A DNA stretch of 23,049 nucleotides from a virus, in IMG/VR virus record IMGVR_UViG_3300007539_000242, positions 1 through 23,049 of that record. One strand, written 5' to 3'. Shown piece by piece: positions 12,154 to 19,876 of the stretch. Numbering within the stretch: the first letter of the stretch is position 1; each line of letters begins with the position of its first letter. Position numbers and translations under genes: made by a program. The notes below the pieces were generated by a model. It was not told the DNA's origin, searched no databases, and saw only the letters and a list, made by a program, of their open reading frames with translations.

Positions 12154-13443
12154 ATGTCAATCAATGAAGACTTCATTATTGAAAACCTAACATCAGAAAA
12201 TGGCGCATCATCCGAAGATTACTTTGATGGTAGGTCAGTTTACAAAGCAGTCGCATATCAAGATGTGTCAATTGATGTTATAGATACTTGGGAAAAAAAG
12301 CCTTTTTATGGTTTGGTCAATGAAGATCATAATCCAATTTTGTTAAAAAGTCAAGAAAAACTTCAAGAAATCTCAGATGATGTATTTTGTTTGGATTTTG
12401 TGGCTTTGGCTTATAACGCTCTTAGAACCAACTGGCTTAATTTATTAAGGGCTGGTAGAGTATCTGATGAATCTAATTTTACAGAATTGATTCCTTTTAA
12501 AGCTTATGAAGAAATAAAACAAGATTATGAAGAATATTTAAATATCAATTTAGAAGAATATATAAATTATATTAAAGATAATATTAATATTAATTTTAGT
12601 ATTAATAATTTTAAATTCTTTATTAATTCTTTTAAAGAATTTTTAAAAGGTAATAATAAACCTTTTACTTTATCTTCTTTAATTCTTTCTAATTCTTTTT
12701 CTCAATTGAATTCTGGATTGGCTATTGAGATCTTTGAATTGGATTATTCAGATGATCAAAGAAAATATGAAGAAGTGATCTTAGATCCTAACTTTGAATA
12801 TTTCTGTTATCTAGCCAGAGACTATGGATTCAGAGTAGATAAGAATATTCCAAACAGAATTGTGGCAGATATTGGATCTCCTGAAATGCAGGAGTACATG
12901 AAGAAAGTAGGAATATCAGGAGAAACAGATTCTGTTCTTAAATCAAACTTTTTCAAAGAATATTATGATCTTGCTTATCTTGTTGAATACCCCATTATAA
13001 GGGATGCCATGCTGGAAGCTTACAATGAACTTGCAGATTCAGAACCGATTGTTGTGAAAAAAACATTTGACATTCAAGATAAATTTGGTAGAATGTGTAA
13101 AGCAAATAGGGCAATTCGAAGAAGATCAATGTCAAAAGATGTTTTTAACTTTGGGTATGGGGACAAATACTTTATTCAAATCTACGCTGAAATCAAAAAC
13201 GCAGAGATTCCAGACAAGAAAGAAAAGATGAAACTAGCTGAACTTAAAAAGAAATTGATTACACTCACTAAAAACAGAAAAAAAGAACTTGACATTGAAA
13301 GAGCCCTAAGCTATACTAACAGAGCATTTAAAAAATGTTTAGCTTTCAACTATGATCCAAACAGGGTCTTAACACACAGACAACTTAGGCTTCTGGAGGA
13401 AGAGTATGAAGACTTCTTCGAGGAGGAAAGAGAAGATGAATGA
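12154..13443 (+). CDS. Unassigned phage structural protein with an AT-rich central segment
   Basis: A 429-residue protein I do not assign to a known function. It follows the hub gene by 12 bases (with CGGAG) and overlaps the polymerase gene by four bases (ATGA), so it belongs to the structural transcript. The segment DPNFEYFCYLARDYGFRVDKNIPNRIVADIGSP (about residues 210-242) resembles a conserved stretch I associate with baseplate-adjacent virion proteins of marine phages. Residues about 125-190, encoded by 12530-12720, are extremely Asn/Ile/Phe/Lys-rich and coded almost only with A/T-ending codons. The C-terminus is strongly charged, ending in Glu/Asp. There is no membrane segment and no catalytic motif. 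Confidence 0.5.
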   Translation: MSINEDFIIENLTSENGASSEDYFDGRSVYKAVAYQDVSIDVIDTWEKKPFYGLVNEDHNPILLKSQEKLQEISDDVFCLDFVALAYNALRTNWLNLLRAGRVSDESNFTELIPFKAYEEIKQDYEEYLNINLEEYINYIKDNININFSINNFKFFINSFKEFLKGNNKPFTLSSLILSNSFSQLNSGLAIEIFELDYSDDQRKYEEVILDPNFEYFCYLARDYGFRVDKNIPNRIVADIGSPEMQEYMKKVGISGETDSVLKSNFFKEYYDLAYLVEYPIIRDAMLEAYNELADSEPIVVKKTFDIQDKFGRMCKANRAIRRRSMSKDVFNFGYGDKYFIQIYAEIKNAEIPDKKEKMKLAELKKKLITLTKNRKKELDIERALSYTNRAFKKCLAFNYDPNRVLTHRQLRLLEEEYEDFFEEEREDE

Positions 13444-14612
13444 TGTTCCAAACTTTTCAAAATCAAATGTTCTTCAAAGACAAATTCGTTCCATTCGAAC
13501 TTTCATCAATCACAACCAAAACATGGGGATACAACAAAAAGTTTAAAGGAAACAAAGTAGATTGTGCAGCTATCTGGGCTTCTGGTCAAAGCCCGGAAGA
13601 AGCTTGTCCTGAAACAATGCTGCAATCTTGGAAAAAAAGCAAAACGAAAATTGAAAGTATTTTGAAGTCTTATGTGAAAGTTGGAATCAATCCGTCAGAT
13701 ATCAATCTTAAATTAGCTGTCCCTGAAAGTATTTTAAAGAATTATTTTTGTTCTCTCGACAAGATCACTGAACATGTTTTCTTGTCTTATGAAAAGCCTT
13801 TGAATTATGATTTTATGTTTGATTTGCATTGGCTGGTCGCAGAAATTGCTGAACAGCATCTTAACTTTGATCTTTCTTTGATCCAAAGAAAAAGGTTCAA
13901 CACTTATTTCAAAAGAGTTGGAGACAACATTAAACTTGGAAAAACCAAAGTTAAATACAATCCTTATGGATCTGTCACAGGACGATTTGGATTGAAACAA
14001 GGTTCTTTTCCAATCATGAACTTGCCGAAAGAAGCAAGGTCTTCTATCATCCCAAACAACGATGCTTTTATTGAGCTAGACTTTAATGGAGCCGAGCTTC
14101 GCACTTTTCTACATTTGGCCGGCGAGGATCAGCCGGAAGGTGATCTTCATCAATGGATTTCAGATTCGATCTTCAAGGGCGAACTGAATCGTGAAAAAAC
14201 AAAACAAAAAGTGTTTTCATGGTTGTATGATCCAAACAAAAATGAAAAAGAACTAGAGAAAGTCTTTAAAAGAGGGGAAGTTCTGCAAAAGCATTTCGAT
14301 GGTTGTTTTGTTTCCACACCCTTTGGAAGAAAAATCAAATCTGATGATTATCATGCTTTGAATTATCTTATTCAATCAACTTCTTCAGACCTTTTTCTTC
14401 GACAAGTGATCAAGATCTTCAAGATGCTGGACGGTAAAAAATCAAAAATTGCTTTTACAATCCACGACTCCGTTGTTCTCGATTTTGCAAAAGAAGATCA
14501 AAATCTTTTGAAAGATTTGATCCAAGCGTTCAAAGAAACCAATTTTGGAATATTTAAAGTAAACATATCAGGAGGTAAGAATTTCGGTGAAATGAAAAAT
14601 ATTCCATTATAG
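13440..14612 (+). CDS. Compact family A DNA polymerase
   Basis: A 390-residue protein with the full polymerase active site of the Pol I family. Motif A is ELDFNGAELR with catalytic D214, steric-gate E219 and R221. Motif B keeps R251-x3-K255-x3-F259-x3-Y263, the same spacing as R754, K758, F762 and Y766 of E. coli Pol I. Motif C is IHDS with H342 and D343; the usual Glu after it is Ser. GSVTGRFG (177-184) and NYLIQSTSSD (308-317) fit the template-binding and pre-motif-C segments. There is no 3'-5' or 5'-3' exonuclease domain: only about 170 unassigned residues precede the palm, and the fingers are shortened. It overlaps the structural gene before it by four bases. It could be a repair or gap-filling polymerase or the replicase; a T4-like phage would normally use family B. 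Confidence 0.85.
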   Translation: MMFQTFQNQMFFKDKFVPFELSSITTKTWGYNKKFKGNKVDCAAIWASGQSPEEACPETMLQSWKKSKTKIESILKSYVKVGINPSDINLKLAVPESILKNYFCSLDKITEHVFLSYEKPLNYDFMFDLHWLVAEIAEQHLNFDLSLIQRKRFNTYFKRVGDNIKLGKTKVKYNPYGSVTGRFGLKQGSFPIMNLPKEARSSIIPNNDAFIELDFNGAELRTFLHLAGEDQPEGDLHQWISDSIFKGELNREKTKQKVFSWLYDPNKNEKELEKVFKRGEVLQKHFDGCFVSTPFGRKIKSDDYHALNYLIQSTSSDLFLRQVIKIFKMLDGKKSKIAFTIHDSVVLDFAKEDQNLLKDLIQAFKETNFGIFKVNISGGKNFGEMKNIPL

Positions 14613-14623
14613 GAGGGTTCAAA

Positions 14624-15262
14624 ATGCCAAAGTTGTTCAATCTTTCAAGAGTTCGTTGGAAATTAGAAAAGTTTATTATGGATGACATCCCAAACTTTGA
14701 GATCTTGTCGAAAAAAGAATCTTTTTTGATGAAAATGCTTTCTTTTGTTCTTTTTTTCAATCCATTGTTTATGAGTTCTTATGTTTCTGTGATTTATCCA
14801 AAGCTTTACGTACCCAGTCACCCATGGAAAGAAGATGATCACTATTCAGCTGTTTTGGTGCTTGCTCACGAGTGGGTCCATTTGAGCGATAGGAAGCGTT
14901 TTGGGCTTCTATTCGACATTGGATACCTTTTTCCACAATGCCTAGTCTTCCTGAGCCTCCTAGCCCCCTTCCTGAGTTGGTGGTGGCTTCTTTGTTTGTT
15001 GTTTTTGCTTCCTATTCCTTCTTTGACCCGCGCATGGTTGGAATACAGAGCTTATTCGGTGACAATGGCTTGCATGTGGTGGTTAAATGAGATTGAAGCC
15101 AATTATTATTGGATTGAAATTCAATTTACCGGAAGATGGTACTATTTTATGTGGCCTTTCAAGGGAATCATCCGAAAAATGTATGAAAGAAAGCTGGAAA
15201 TGATTAAAAAAGACCAACTAACCTCTCAAGAAAGAAAAATCAAAGAAATCATCTTTTCGTAG
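14624..15262 (+). CDS. Membrane-associated HExxH metallopeptidase-like protein
   Basis: A 212-residue protein. LAHEWVHLSDR (80-90) contains the zinc-protease motif HExxH with H82, E83 and H86. WLEYRAY supplies E140 as a likely third zinc ligand, with the glutamate in a helix after a hydrophobic hairpin. Residues 36-58 and about 98-131 are strongly hydrophobic (FLSWWWLLCLLFLLP), so the protein probably sits in the inner membrane with the active site near its surface. The C-terminus is charged. An AGGAGGG site precedes the ATG. It lies between the polymerase and the tubulin-like gene, and no function in phage assembly or lysis can be stated. The fold is inferred from the motif and the helical context; substrate unknown. 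Confidence 0.6.
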   Translation: MPKLFNLSRVRWKLEKFIMDDIPNFEILSKKESFLMKMLSFVLFFNPLFMSSYVSVIYPKLYVPSHPWKEDDHYSAVLVLAHEWVHLSDRKRFGLLFDIGYLFPQCLVFLSLLAPFLSWWWLLCLLFLLPIPSLTRAWLEYRAYSVTMACMWWLNEIEANYYWIEIQFTGRWYYFMWPFKGIIRKMYERKLEMIKKDQLTSQERKIKEIIFS

Positions 15263-15270: not shown

Positions 15271-15297
15271 TTATGTGTCAATTTGAAAGGAGTTGAT

Positions 15298-15600
15298 ATG
15301 TCAAAAAATAAATACAGCAATCTCTCTTCTCGGCTTTCAGCCTCGGTAGAGAATGCGAAAGATATACTTTCTATGAGAAATCCTTGGATTGTGAATGACT
15401 TTGATACAGAATCTAGCAATGTCCACATGAATGACGAAGAAATTTATTATATTGCGGTTTTTGTTGCCGATTTGAAAACTTTGAAAGAACAAAGATCTGT
15501 TTTTGATATTGTTCATTTAAAATGTGATGATGATACCGTAGCGCGTTTCAAAACGCTTTTCTCAAATGAGAATTTAAACAAAATTATGTTTTCTTGTTGA
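15298..15600 (+). CDS. Small unassigned protein upstream of the tubulin-like gene
   Basis: A 100-residue protein with the start at ATG 15298, five bases after AAAGGAG. An in-frame TTG 15 bases upstream lies before that site and is rejected. The N-terminus is Ser-rich and probably flexible (SNLSSRLSASVENAKDIL). The second half (EIYYIAVFVADLKTLKEQ, then FDIVHLKCDDDTVARFKTLF) alternates strands and helices and may be a small alpha/beta domain. It has no membrane segment. It starts a short transcription unit with the FtsZ/tubulin-like gene 12 bases downstream, so it could be its partner or regulator, but this is only context. No family is recognised. Confidence 0.6.
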   Translation: MSKNKYSNLSSRLSASVENAKDILSMRNPWIVNDFDTESSNVHMNDEEIYYIAVFVADLKTLKEQRSVFDIVHLKCDDDTVARFKTLFSNENLNKIMFSC

Positions 15601-15612
15601 TCAGGAGGATCG

Positions 15613-16446
15613 ATGAACGTTGTCGGCCTAGGCAAGACTGCTTGCAACATTGCAAAAGAATTCCAAAAATACCCTCAATACAAAACTTTCTTTTTGAATT
15701 CAGAGAAGCTAGAAGAAAACAATTTCTTTCTTATTCCTAAACAAGATTCCCATGAGCTTTATGAAGAAAGATGCCCGGATTTGTCTTCCTTTTCTTCAAA
15801 GGTTGATGATGATGTTATTTTTATTGTGAATGGTGGAGGAACCATCACAGGATCTGTTTTAAGGATCTTGGAAAAGATCAAAGACAAAAAGATAACAATC
15901 ATCTTTTTGAAGCCTGAAGAAGCTTCTTTGACTTCTTTGAGAAAAACTCAAAATAAAGTTGTCTTCAATATTCTACAAGAATACACTAGATCTGGCTTGT
16001 TTGAGAGGATGTTTATTCTAGAATTAGATAAAGTAGAAGAAACAGTCACAGGAATTACGATCTTGAACAGGATCAAAAAGATCAACGAGTTTATTTGTGA
16101 TCTGATCCATACTGTGAACATATTCGAAAACACATCAGCAATCTTTGAAACGCCAAAAGAGAATGTTGACTTTTCAAGGATCTATTCTATTGGTATATAC
16201 GATTTTGAAAATAATTTAGAGAAAATGTTTTTTTCTCTTGACACTCCGAAAGAATTTTGCTATTATTACAACATTCCAATGAAAACGTTGGAAGAAGACA
16301 CTGAAATATTCAAAAGGATCACAAACAGAATGAAAGAAAAGACAAAAGAAAAAGAATGCCACATTTCCTATTCCATCTATGGAACTCACCACCAACAGAT
16401 ATACTCTTATGTTATATCCAATTCTCACTTAATTCAAAAATTTTAA
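15613..16446 (+). CDS. Divergent FtsZ/tubulin-like protein
   Basis: A 277-residue protein. The order of elements follows the FtsZ/tubulin GTPase domain. It has MNVVGLGKTACNIA (1-14) at the first nucleotide loop, and VNGGGTITGSVLRILEKI (72-89), compared with the signature GGGTGTG[AS] followed by a helix. Next is IIFLKPE (strand), then RKTQNKVVFNILQEYTRSGLFERMFIL, compared with the FtsZ segment before its 'VIPND' strand. An H7-like helix carries N158, and ENVDFSRI (183-190) matches the FtsZ T7 loop N-x-D-F-A-D. The T7 aspartate equivalent to E. coli D212 is Arg (R189), so GTP hydrolysis between subunits may be weak or absent. The C-terminal domain is short (about 85 residues). AGGAGG lies five bases before the ATG. 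Confidence 0.65.
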   Translation: MNVVGLGKTACNIAKEFQKYPQYKTFFLNSEKLEENNFFLIPKQDSHELYEERCPDLSSFSSKVDDDVIFIVNGGGTITGSVLRILEKIKDKKITIIFLKPEEASLTSLRKTQNKVVFNILQEYTRSGLFERMFILELDKVEETVTGITILNRIKKINEFICDLIHTVNIFENTSAIFETPKENVDFSRIYSIGIYDFENNLEKMFFSLDTPKEFCYYYNIPMKTLEEDTEIFKRITNRMKEKTKEKECHISYSIYGTHHQQIYSYVISNSHLIQKF

Positions 16447-16505: not shown

Positions 16506-17171
16506 ATGAAAAAGATTATCATCTCTTTGGATTGTCCACTGCAAAAAGCAGTTAAAATCATGAAGCAAACAGGCGAAATGGAACAAGTTTATGGATATAA
16601 GATTGGATTTCATCTTGTTTTTACATTTGGTTTGATTCGTTGTGTGAATGAGGTAAAGTTCAGAGCGCCAAACAAGAAAGTGATCTATGATCATCAAAAA
16701 GGAGGAAACGACATCCCACAAATGGGAATGAACTTTGCTTCTGCTATGAAAATGGCCGGCGTTGATGAAGCGATTCTGTTTCCTTTTGCCGGCCCTGACT
16801 CTTTGGATTTTTGGTTGAAAGAATTGAAAAAAAGAAACATTGAAACAATTGTTGGTGGTAAGATGACCCATCAAGGGTTTTCGAAAGAAGAAGGAGGTTT
16901 CTTTTCTGATGAAGATTCTTTGAAGATTTACAAGCAAGCTGCTGATTTTGGAGTGAATAGGTTTGTGCTTCCTCCTAATAAACACGACTTTTATGAAAAA
17001 GTTTCAAGTCATGTTGAAGGGAACAAGATTATCTATTCTCCCGGATTTGGAGCGCAAGGTTGCGAGGATAACTCTTATACAGATTATCCTATTATTGGAA
17101 GAAGCATTTATAACTCAGAAGATCCAAAAGAAAGTGTTTTGGAATGGTATGAAAAACTTTGTAAGGAATAA
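16506..17171 (+). CDS. pyrF: Orotidine 5'-phosphate decarboxylase-like protein
   Basis: A 221-residue (beta/alpha)8-type protein. The OMP decarboxylase would convert OMP to UMP in pyrimidine synthesis. Visible residues are D9 (ISLD), K32 (YKIG), and the catalytic array D62-H-Q-K65-x3-D69-I-P. The family usually has D-x-K-x-x-D-I-P; the D-x-x-K-x-x-x-D-I-P form has one extra residue on each side of the Lys and, as I recall, is found in some archaeal-type enzymes. Phosphate-binding elements are also present: SPGFGAQG (Gln) near 180 and IIGRSIY (Arg) near 198. It is of normal length for the family. It has its own promoter, and AAAGGA lies before the ATG. It probably helps feed nucleotide demand during infection. 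A related non-decarboxylating barrel cannot be excluded. Confidence 0.7.
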   Translation: MKKIIISLDCPLQKAVKIMKQTGEMEQVYGYKIGFHLVFTFGLIRCVNEVKFRAPNKKVIYDHQKGGNDIPQMGMNFASAMKMAGVDEAILFPFAGPDSLDFWLKELKKRNIETIVGGKMTHQGFSKEEGGFFSDEDSLKIYKQAADFGVNRFVLPPNKHDFYEKVSSHVEGNKIIYSPGFGAQGCEDNSYTDYPIIGRSIYNSEDPKESVLEWYEKLCKE

Positions 17172-17452: not shown

Positions 17453-17481
17453 TTGACTTTTTGAATTCGTTTTGATATGAT
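17453..17481 (+). promoter_or_regulatory. Sigma70-type promoter before the SSB gene
   Basis: TTGACT (17453-17458), a 17-base spacer and TATGAT (17476-17481). The match to the bacterial housekeeping consensus is one mismatch in each box. It lies 43 bases before the SSB start and shares AGTTCTTGACTTT with the other promoter. It would drive SSB, UvsX and the small gene up to the terminator at 19589. Confidence 0.8.
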
Positions 17482-17524
17482 ATTACACAAGCTCGAAGCT
17501 GTTAACAACACAAAGGAGAAAACA

Positions 17525-18256
17525 ATGGCTATTGACATGAAAAAAATGAGAGAAAAGTACAACCGTCTGAAAAACAAAGGAGGCGGTAAAGACAATCTTT
17601 TCTGGAAACCGGAAGATGGAGAGCAAACCATTCGTATTCTGCCCACTTCGGATGGCGATCCGTTCAAAGAGTTTTGGTTCTATTACGGACTGGACAAAGC
17701 TCCGACTCTTTGCCCGAAGCGTAACTTTGGTGATGAGTCCCCTGTTTTGGACTTTGCTTCCGAACTTTATCGCGAAGGCACTCCGGAGTCTATTGAAATG
17801 GCTAAAAAGCTGTTTCCAAAGCAAAGGTTCTTCTCGCCTGTCCTCGTTCGAGGAAAAGAAGAAGAAGGTGTGAAAATTTGGGGTTACTCCAAAACTGTTT
17901 ATGAGCAACTGCTTCAATTGGTTTTGAACCCCGACTACGGTGATATTACCGATACTGACACTGGAACTGACTTGGTTCTTGCTTATGGTAAAGCGCCGGG
18001 AGCAATGTTCCCCTCTACCACTCTTACTCCGAAGCGTCGAGCTTCGAAAGCATGCGAAGATGGTGATGAGGAATGCGCTCAACTTCTGGAAGCTATTCCG
18101 GACTTTGATGGCCTTTTCGAAAGAAAAACCACACAAGATGTTCAAGCACTGCTTGATAGATATCTTGCTGGTGGTGACAAAGACGAAGTTGAGAAATACT
18201 CTTCTAATGTTGAAGACAAAGTTGGAAAGGCTTTCAACGAACTTCTTGGAGGTTGA
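17525..18256 (+). CDS. 32: Single-stranded DNA-binding protein (gp32-like)
   Basis: A 243-residue protein; the start is ATG 17525 after AAAGGAG (17512-17518). An in-frame ATG 48 bases upstream overlaps the -10 box and is rejected. The N-terminus is basic (KKMREKYNRLKNK, 6-18), matching the gp32 cooperativity region. Residues 24-62 (LFWKPEDGEQTIRILPTSDGDPFKEFWFYYG) follow the gp32 OB-fold pattern. T4 gp32 has about 301 residues and a zinc site of His plus three Cys. Here only C63 lies in the core, so zinc binding is not evident. The C-terminus is charged. gp32 coats single-stranded DNA in replication and recombination and works with UvsX, which is encoded next. Only three bases separate the two genes. 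Confidence 0.85.
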   Translation: MAIDMKKMREKYNRLKNKGGGKDNLFWKPEDGEQTIRILPTSDGDPFKEFWFYYGLDKAPTLCPKRNFGDESPVLDFASELYREGTPESIEMAKKLFPKQRFFSPVLVRGKEEEGVKIWGYSKTVYEQLLQLVLNPDYGDITDTDTGTDLVLAYGKAPGAMFPSTTLTPKRRASKACEDGDEECAQLLEAIPDFDGLFERKTTQDVQALLDRYLAGGDKDEVEKYSSNVEDKVGKAFNELLGG

Positions 18257-18259
18257 TAA

Positions 18260-19342
18260 ATGACCGCTGGCAAAGTAGACATGGATGTGTACCGCAAGCT
18301 GCTGAATAAAAAGGTGGGCATGACGGTTGCACACAACCTCAACAAAGAAAATCCAACAGAAGTCAAAGAATGGATTCCCACCGGCTCACGCTGGTTGGAC
18401 TCTATCATTTGCAGAGGCCAATTGGCTGGCATTCCTGTTGGAAAAATCACGGAGATTGCAGGACTTGAAGCTAGTGGGAAAAGCTTCATGGCTGCACAAA
18501 TTGCTGGTAACGCACAAAAGATGGGCATTAGAGTTGCTTACTTTGACGCTGAATCAGCAATTGATCCTACTTTCTTGGCAAAAGCTGGTTGCAATGTTGA
18601 TGACTTGCTTTATGTCCAAGCAGCATCTGTTGAAAAAGTATTCGAAATGATTGAAACTCTTTTGGCAGATGAAGAGAAATGGCTGTTTATTTGGGATTCC
18701 CTAGCGCACACTCCTGCGGAGAAAGATGTTGAAGGTGACTTCAACCCTCAATCTTCTATGGCAATGAAAGCTAGGATTCTTTCCAAAGCCTTCTCTAAGG
18801 TGACGATTCCTTTGGCAAATACACAATCAACTTTCTTGATTGTTAATCAGCTTAAAACGAATATCACCAGTAATATTGCAGAAGCTTTGACTACTCCTTA
18901 TTTCACACCGGGAGGTAAAGCTGCTCATTACACCTATTCTTTGAGAATCTGGCTTACCGCCAGAAAAGCAAAGGCTGCTTACATTTTGGACTCCAATGGG
19001 GTCAGGATTGGTTCCGAAGTGAAAGTCAAACTTGAAAAGTCTCGCTTTGGCTCCGCCGGAAGGACTTGCAACTTTAAGTTGCTTTGGGGTCAGCAAGTGG
19101 GAATTCAAGATGAGGAAAGTTGGCTTGATGCCATCAGAGGCTCTGAAAGGTTGAAAACCGCAGGGGCTTGGTACACTCTAACTTCGAAAGAAGGAAGAGA
19201 GTTTAAGTTTCAATTGAAACAGTGGGTCGAGAAACTTCAAGACCCAGAGTTTAGACAAGTTATCTTTGACGTTATGGATGAGCATGTAATCTATAAGCCA
19301 GCCGAAGATAACGAAGACGCATTACAAACACAGGAGGATTAA
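18260..19342 (+). CDS. uvsX: UvsX/RecA-like recombinase
   Basis: A 360-residue strand-exchange protein. The Walker A motif is GLEASGKS (68-75). YFDAESA (94-100) holds the catalytic glutamate E99, as in RecA. Walker B is LFIWD (142-146). NQLKTN (196-201) begins the L2-type DNA-binding loop, and TPYFTPGGKAAHY follows it. The length is close to T4 UvsX (about 391). It forms filaments on ssDNA and drives recombination-dependent replication and repair with the gp32-like protein upstream. GGAGG lies before its ATG in the end of the SSB gene, which suggests coupled expression. I noticed no AUA codon in it, in contrast to the glycosyltransferase genes downstream. Confidence 0.92.
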   Translation: MTAGKVDMDVYRKLLNKKVGMTVAHNLNKENPTEVKEWIPTGSRWLDSIICRGQLAGIPVGKITEIAGLEASGKSFMAAQIAGNAQKMGIRVAYFDAESAIDPTFLAKAGCNVDDLLYVQAASVEKVFEMIETLLADEEKWLFIWDSLAHTPAEKDVEGDFNPQSSMAMKARILSKAFSKVTIPLANTQSTFLIVNQLKTNITSNIAEALTTPYFTPGGKAAHYTYSLRIWLTARKAKAAYILDSNGVRIGSEVKVKLEKSRFGSAGRTCNFKLLWGQQVGIQDEESWLDAIRGSERLKTAGAWYTLTSKEGREFKFQLKQWVEKLQDPEFRQVIFDVMDEHVIYKPAEDNEDALQTQED

Positions 19343-19588: not shown

Positions 19589-19610
19589 GAAGCCCGAAAG
19601 GGCTTCTTTT
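19589..19610 (+). terminator. Intrinsic terminator after the recombination genes
   Basis: GAAGCCC and GGGCTTC form a perfect 7-base stem with a GAAA tetraloop, followed by TTTT. It lies 15 bases after the stop of the 76-residue gene and directly before the first tRNA. Confidence 0.85.
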
Positions 19611-19684
19611 CGACTCGTAGCTCAGCAGGTAAGAGCGCACAACTTATAATTGTGAGGACGAGGGTTCAAATCCCTCCGGGTCAA
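19611..19684 (+). tRNA. tRNA-Ile (anticodon UAU)
   Basis: A 74-base cloverleaf. D stem GCTC/GAGC; anticodon stem CACAA/TTGTG with loop CTTATAA, anticodon TAT; T arm GAGGG-TTCAAAT-CCCTC. The acceptor pairs six of seven positions; the first pair would be C1-A72. The discriminator is A, and CCA is not encoded. It reads AUA isoleucine codons. Its 5' end touches the T-run of the terminator. Confidence 0.85.
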
Positions 19685-19688
19685 TTTT

Positions 19689-19761
19689 TCCGATATAGCT
19701 CAGTTGGTAGAGCAGGTGGCTGTTAACCACCTTGTCGCAGGTTCGAGTCCTGCTGTCGGAG
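19689..19761 (+). tRNA. tRNA-Asn (anticodon GUU)
   Basis: A 73-base cloverleaf with a fully paired acceptor TCCGATA/TGTCGGA (one T-G pair), D stem GCTC/GAGC, anticodon stem GGTGG/CCACC with loop CTGTTAA, and T arm GCAGG-TTCGAGT-CCTGC. The discriminator is G. No encoded CCA. It starts four bases after the Ile tRNA. Confidence 0.95.
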
Positions 19762-19769
19762 CAAATTTT

Positions 19770-19851
<82 letters not shown>

Positions 19852-19876
19852 CTAATTTCCAACAAAGGAGAATAAA

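Follow-up and report, generated by a model that had tools for sequence, protein, structure and literature searches.

A predicted tubulin/FtsZ-fold protein family within the replication gene cluster of uncultured T4-like phages

The open reading frame at positions 15613-16446 of the analysed window (the whole stretch of DNA, 23,049 nucleotides in length) encodes, on the forward strand, a protein of 277 amino acids for which structure prediction gives a complete two-domain tubulin/FtsZ fold, and which represents an undescribed and unnamed phage family, here called fam0. The frame is an ordinary reading of this stretch and a genuine gene: it opens with an ATG at 15613, its stop codon ends at 16446, and a ribosome-binding site, AGGAGG, lies 4 bases 5′ of the ATG (15603-15608). 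Values of dN/dS between 0.05 and 0.22 among close relatives indicate that the gene is under purifying selection.

Predicted fold and relationship to known tubulins

In the AlphaFold2 model of the window protein, built with 42 family sequences (pLDDT 95.1, pTM 0.92), as well as in a separate model of the divergent member L047 (pLDDT 95.5), a Rossmann-like GTPase domain and the long helix H7 are combined with a C-terminal alpha/beta domain, which in the window protein comprises residues 190-271, from S7 to S10 (16180-16425). All 50 matches listed by Foldseek for the window model against the PDB were FtsZ or TubZ chains, with a best E of 2.8e-12, TM-scores of about 0.7 and an identity of about 11%, and the model of L047 again retrieved FtsZ/TubZ. 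In a library of viral structures, the best match was an uncultured-phage protein annotated as FtsZ, and PhuZ of phage Noxifer was also among the matches. A plain NAD-type Rossmann enzyme, at which some weak matches had hinted, was rejected because the Foldseek matches to FtsZ/TubZ extend across both domains.

The FtsZ-like order of elements which the original prediction had read along the whole protein is borne out by the model and by the fold search, and the motifs it cited are all present and correctly placed in the predicted structure. G5-x-G7 is located at the end of strand S1, in the T1 loop (residues 5-14, GLGKTACNIA; 15625-15654), while GGGTITGS (residues 74-81; 15832-15855) belongs to the T4 loop, between strand 67-73 and helix 77-88. 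LKP is found at the end of strand 93-100, N158, at a nucleotide-contact position, within the long helix 153-173 that corresponds to H7 (16084-16086), and NVDFSR (184-189) in the loop joining H7 and strand 190-197, which is the T7 region. With the tubulin core present and GGGTITGS at the nucleotide site, the structure prediction and fold search left the proposed fold unrefuted.

At the level of single sequences, searches with the window protein (Pfam, PHROGs, phmmer against the PDB, and a tblastn search of 50,697 phage records) yielded no convincing relative, and matches to cysteine synthase, TrkA_N, terminase and gas-vesicle proteins were dismissed as weak local similarities. The Pfam profile PF00091 gave no match to the window protein itself and was matched weakly, below the gathering cut-off, by six of 42 family members (best E 0.0064). 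The profile-profile comparison with FtsZ and tubulin families that had been suggested at the outset gave alignments in register. By hhalign, the closest match of the fam0 profile was a second phage tubulin described below (E 4.5e-7, probability 92.6%, spanning T1 to T7), followed by PhuZ (E 3.9e-5 over the first 100 columns) and FtsZ (E 0.0015 over 259 columns). Control profiles, both reversed and from eleven neighbour families, reached E 0.08 or worse, and column shuffles 0.06 or worse, save for one of 15, an FtsZ shuffle, at 0.011. The profile scores for the second phage tubulin and for PhuZ far exceed the reversed, shuffled and unrelated controls, while the FtsZ value would be marginal by itself and ceases to be so once combined with the fold. 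The link between fam0 and FtsZ is based on the fold and on the profile-profile evidence, since hmmsearch with the fam0 profile against PDB sequences found no FtsZ.

Conserved and missing elements of the family

One distant IMG/VR relative led, through an alignment-based scan, to 60 loci whose proteins align with the window protein at about 27-39% identity. The family grew further when the neighbouring polymerase was used for scanning, and 104 members of IMG/VR type were left after clustering at 80%. The expectation of a widespread, unnamed phage family was thereby supported on 104 non-redundant members, with T7 altered throughout. No member was found in the bacterial and archaeal genomes scanned with the family, and no relative of the gene in the cultured-phage collection. 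In a PHROGs search of the family alignment, four members matched phrog_24038, a group of unknown function (best E 7e-5), which may contain a distant cultured-phage relative.

Most known phage tubulins come from nucleus-forming jumbo phages and from plasmid-like phages. In the literature, papers on Far-T4 phages mention neither tubulin nor FtsZ in their main text (PMC4360716, PMC7198788), tubulin comes up in surveys of huge phages and of marine jumbo phages only as PhuZ-type homologues (PMC7162821, PMC9123017), and a recent paper on FtsZ/tubulin evolution does not mention phage proteins (PMC9871819). No publication describing fam0 was found among the open-access journal papers searched.

Judging from the alignment, the family seems to keep much of the nucleotide pocket, namely the T1 glycines and the T6 and H7 asparagines. 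G5 and G7 of T1 are kept in 99% of the 104 members, G74 of T4 in 95% and D29 in 79%, while the T6 asparagine (residue 138) is present in 84 (81%) and the H7 asparagine, N158, in 90 (87%). The window protein is itself atypical at two of these conserved positions, carrying N29 and, at the T6 position (16024-16026), L138. The most conserved residues of the family are others, Q122 and R126 (104/104 each) and S127 (103/104), which form the end of helix H5 as QxYxRS (QEYTRS at residues 122-127 of the window protein; 15976-15993). They are not an FtsZ signature, and the end of H5 that carries them presumably faces away from the nucleotide, if the known tubulin fold is followed.

The elements associated with catalysis in FtsZ, where the T7 aspartates and helix H8 act on the GTP of the adjacent subunit, show a different state. 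GGGTITGS had been taken for the FtsZ signature; it does sit in the T4 loop, but as a string it is nearly private to the window, as GGGT-x-[TS]-G occurs in two of the 104 members, the canonical GGGTGTG or GGGTG[ST]G in none, and the family form is G-x-G-x-I-S-G. In a similar manner, the claim that the T7 aspartate is replaced by arginine is supported by R or K at residue 189 in 97/104 members (residue 186 being acidic in 64), but NVDFSR is not a family motif and the loss includes H8 as well. Which FtsZ residue R189 replaces depends on the alignment: read by motif, it takes the place of the second aspartate of T7, but in the hhalign alignment with the second tubulin residue 186 comes near that place. 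The NxDxxD motif of T7 is absent from all 104 members, and in 103 of them exactly 21 residues run from N169 in H7 to R189 ahead of S7, a uniform segment that leaves no space for H8, which is therefore missing throughout the family. Accordingly shortened in the window protein is the T7 region at residues 174-189 (16132-16179), and neither of the two AlphaFold2 models has a helix at the H8 position. Poor GTP hydrolysis, as originally expected, is in keeping with the lack of both NxDxxD and H8. Since GGGTGTG, NxDxxD and H8 are all missing, fam0, although tubulin-like, is probably not a hydrolysing filament.

Differences extend to the C-terminus. The FtsZ tail peptide binds FtsA/ZipA; fam0 proteins end from a few to about 25 residues past the last strand, with neither the FtsZ C-terminal linker nor the conserved tail peptide, and in the window protein no FtsZ-type tail follows the C-terminal domain. 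In summary of the comparison with FtsZ, fam0 shares the two-domain fold, the order of elements, the T1 glycines and the position of the H7 asparagine, but differs in its low identity, in the absence of GGGTGTG, NxDxxD, H8 and the tail, and in scoring below the Pfam cut-off. With PhuZ of the nucleus-forming jumbo phages, which have a chimallin shell, it has the phage tubulin fold in common, as reflected in the hhalign score, but it lacks the T7 motif and the C-terminal tail, and it is found behind polA in a T4-like replication cluster and not in a jumbo-phage genome.

Replication cluster and a second tubulin

In the window, the surroundings of the gene include, all on the forward strand, a family-A DNA polymerase consisting of the polymerase domain only (polA, 390 aa, 13440-14612; Pfam DNA_pol_A 1.9e-13 and synteny), a conserved gene without Pfam match directly 5′ of polA and overlapping it (12154-13443), whose homologues directly precede polA in 52 contigs, a gp32-like single-stranded-DNA-binding protein (17477-18256; Pfam gp32 1.3e-8, above cut-off) and a UvsX-like recombinase (18260-19342; PHROG 97 7.9e-58, Pfam RecA). 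Two extra genes separate polA and the fam0 gene in the window. One of them (14624-15262) encodes a membrane-like protein of 212 aa that carries an HExxH motif (HEWVH) and has no Pfam match. The other, a 105-aa frame directly 5′ of the fam0 gene (15283-15600), shows weak similarity (E 7e-4) to the 3′-5′ exonuclease domain of family-A polymerases and seems to end ahead of the second exonuclease motif. Further observations in the window are an Orotidine 5′-phosphate decarboxylase/HUMPS-family protein (16506-17171; Pfam 5e-11), for which tblastn found no relatives in the cultured-phage collection, and three tRNA genes (19610-19852) for Ile (anticodon TAT), Asn and Tyr. PADLOC gave no defence match.

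In related loci, a large gene comes first, followed by a gene of unknown function with about 480 codons, polA, fam0, sometimes a WYL_2-like gene, gp32, uvsX, a 5′-3′ exonuclease and a helicase, with dCMP deaminase and other nucleotide-metabolism genes within the cluster of some members. There, the fam0 start in most cases overlaps the polA end, by 1 to 13 bases, which suggests translational coupling. Among the polA-type contigs examined that have room for it, the fam0 gene lies downstream of the polymerase in 76 of 77, a count biased by the polymerase profile having been built from fam0-carrying contigs and by the restriction to the 80 best among at least 405 relatives. The sole exception, L276, has other genes at that place. 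Such a position behind polA and before gp32 and uvsX points to a putative role in DNA replication. Operon position by itself does not prove a function shared with the replication proteins, and distance correlations, being high for all neighbouring genes, are not taken as proof of a functional tie.

The cultivated Flavobacterium phage immuto and Microcystis phage Mel-JY01 have a related cluster, sharing the family-A polymerase, gp32, UvsX, 5′-3′ exonuclease and helicase, but differ in the absence of the fam0 gene. In immuto, two small genes separate polA from gp32, and the possibility that they hold a split or hidden copy was tested and rejected. As the two cultivated phages do without it, replication of this type does not require fam0. 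On the basis of the cluster shared with immuto, we infer that the fam0-carrying phages would belong to the Far-T4 group. The contigs with the gene, which reach at most about 204 kb, are presumably of marine origin, to judge by the IMG sample numbers. The polymerase scan of bacterial and archaeal genomes gave one match with the gene nearby, a phage piece with polA, fam0, gp32 and uvsX and with runs of N in its vicinity, within a WOR-3 bin (L287, CP070664.1). The piece was probably mis-scaffolded into the bacterial bin, and is perhaps a hint at the host.

Furthermore, the fam0 profile found a second open reading frame in one genome (L080:1475-2611, genome G007), which passes the Pfam cut-offs for Tubulin (1.8e-9) and TubZ-like_C (1.6e-7). 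This second tubulin, of about 350-380 aa, also occurs in L089, L090, L091 and L097-L176. At least 95 IMG/VR loci encode it, and no record of it was found in the cultured-phage collection at this sensitivity. It has the same fold as fam0 and shares some genomes with it, but, in contrast to fam0, it keeps the glycine-rich T4 and the acidic T7 residues, has a longer body and is recognised by Pfam. The premise that these T4-like phages are free of known tubulins consequently did not hold, since some of them also encode a canonical TubZ-like protein. Among 27 contigs with the second tubulin, all 13 that are long enough to show it have the fam0 gene as well, about 29-33 kb downstream, while the other 14 end before the fam0 site, as reckoned from coordinates. 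On the other hand, the second tubulin was not detected in the 123-204 kb fam0 contigs G002, G004, G005 and G063-G067. An obligate pair of the two proteins was rejected because of these large contigs carrying fam0 alone, which also argue that fam0 has a use of its own.

Possible roles

Our preferred reading, held tentatively and with slightly less than even confidence, is that fam0 could be a scaffold or adaptor within the machinery that replicates the phage DNA, binding a nucleotide and working without filament-driven hydrolysis. The protein would bind GTP or a related nucleotide without hydrolysing it in filaments, it would be made by translational coupling with the DNA polymerase, and its role would be structural or that of an adaptor, for instance as a scaffold or anchor by which replication forks are arranged or held in place, with QxYxRS at the end of H5 as the contact site for a partner. 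The more specific version, in which a tubulin fold devoid of its hydrolytic end is co-translated with the polymerase as a part of the replication machine and organises or anchors the forks through its nucleotide state, is possible but somewhat more doubtful. The leucine that the window copy has in place of the T6 asparagine counts against nucleotide binding by the scaffold. Because the catalytic motif is missing, a nucleotide-sensing structural part of replication is more probable than an ordinary GTP-driven filament.

It could also be that fam0 forms a GTP-dependent filament of the PhuZ/TubZ kind, which positions or segregates phage DNA and, with slow or no hydrolysis, is very stable. TubZ partition systems consist of TubZ with an adjacent DNA-binding adaptor, TubR, and centromere repeats. 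The neighbours of fam0 are the polymerase, gp32 and uvsX. The common fold and the mostly kept nucleotide-pocket residues agree with a filament, and a stable one is conceivable given that PhuZ D190A, a mutant unable to hydrolyse GTP, nonetheless forms polymers with it (PMC4244570). The loss of H8 in addition makes it less likely: one longitudinal contact face of FtsZ is built from T7 and H8, both of which every fam0 member lacks, and the PhuZ/TubZ-type C-terminal tail is absent too. We regard such a filament as unlikely.

Phage inhibitors of FtsZ exist, such as Gp0.4 of T7 and Kil of lambda, and the original prediction had considered capping or interference with division. In this scenario, fam0 would be an early host-takeover factor whose intact nucleotide face binds the bottom face of host FtsZ and stops division, and an FtsZ-like fold with one changed face would fit a dead-end subunit. 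However, host inhibitors are usually accessory genes, while fam0 is near-universal in its clade and fixed between the polymerase and gp32, and an identity to FtsZ of only about 11% also speaks against it. A poison of host FtsZ is thus possible but less favoured than a replication role, given the place of the gene directly behind the polymerase in nearly all related contigs with room, and we consider it somewhat less likely still than a stable filament.

There is a small chance that fam0 caps, nucleates or regulates the second tubulin; the presence of both genes in every second-tubulin contig of sufficient length, as well as the profile similarity of the two proteins, would be compatible with this, but not the large contigs in which fam0 occurs and the second tubulin was not detected. 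Just as improbable is a reuse of the fold, with Q122, R126 and S127 as active-site residues, in an enzyme or nucleotide sensor that takes part in the nucleotide metabolism of the phage, for, despite these almost invariant polar residues off any FtsZ signature and the dCMP deaminase-type genes in some clusters, the matches to enzyme families are weak and chance-like, and we know of no tubulin-fold enzyme with a similar Q/R/S site.

With fam0, a tubulin-fold protein occupies a fixed spot among the replication genes of a T4-like phage clade, and a gene conserved in a widespread group of uncultured viruses gains a testable function. With the catalytic end uniformly gone and another face almost invariant, the family raises the question of whether a tubulin fold can serve replication without a GTP-driven filament. 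If the replication reading is true, the tubulin fold would be used outside GTP-driven filaments.
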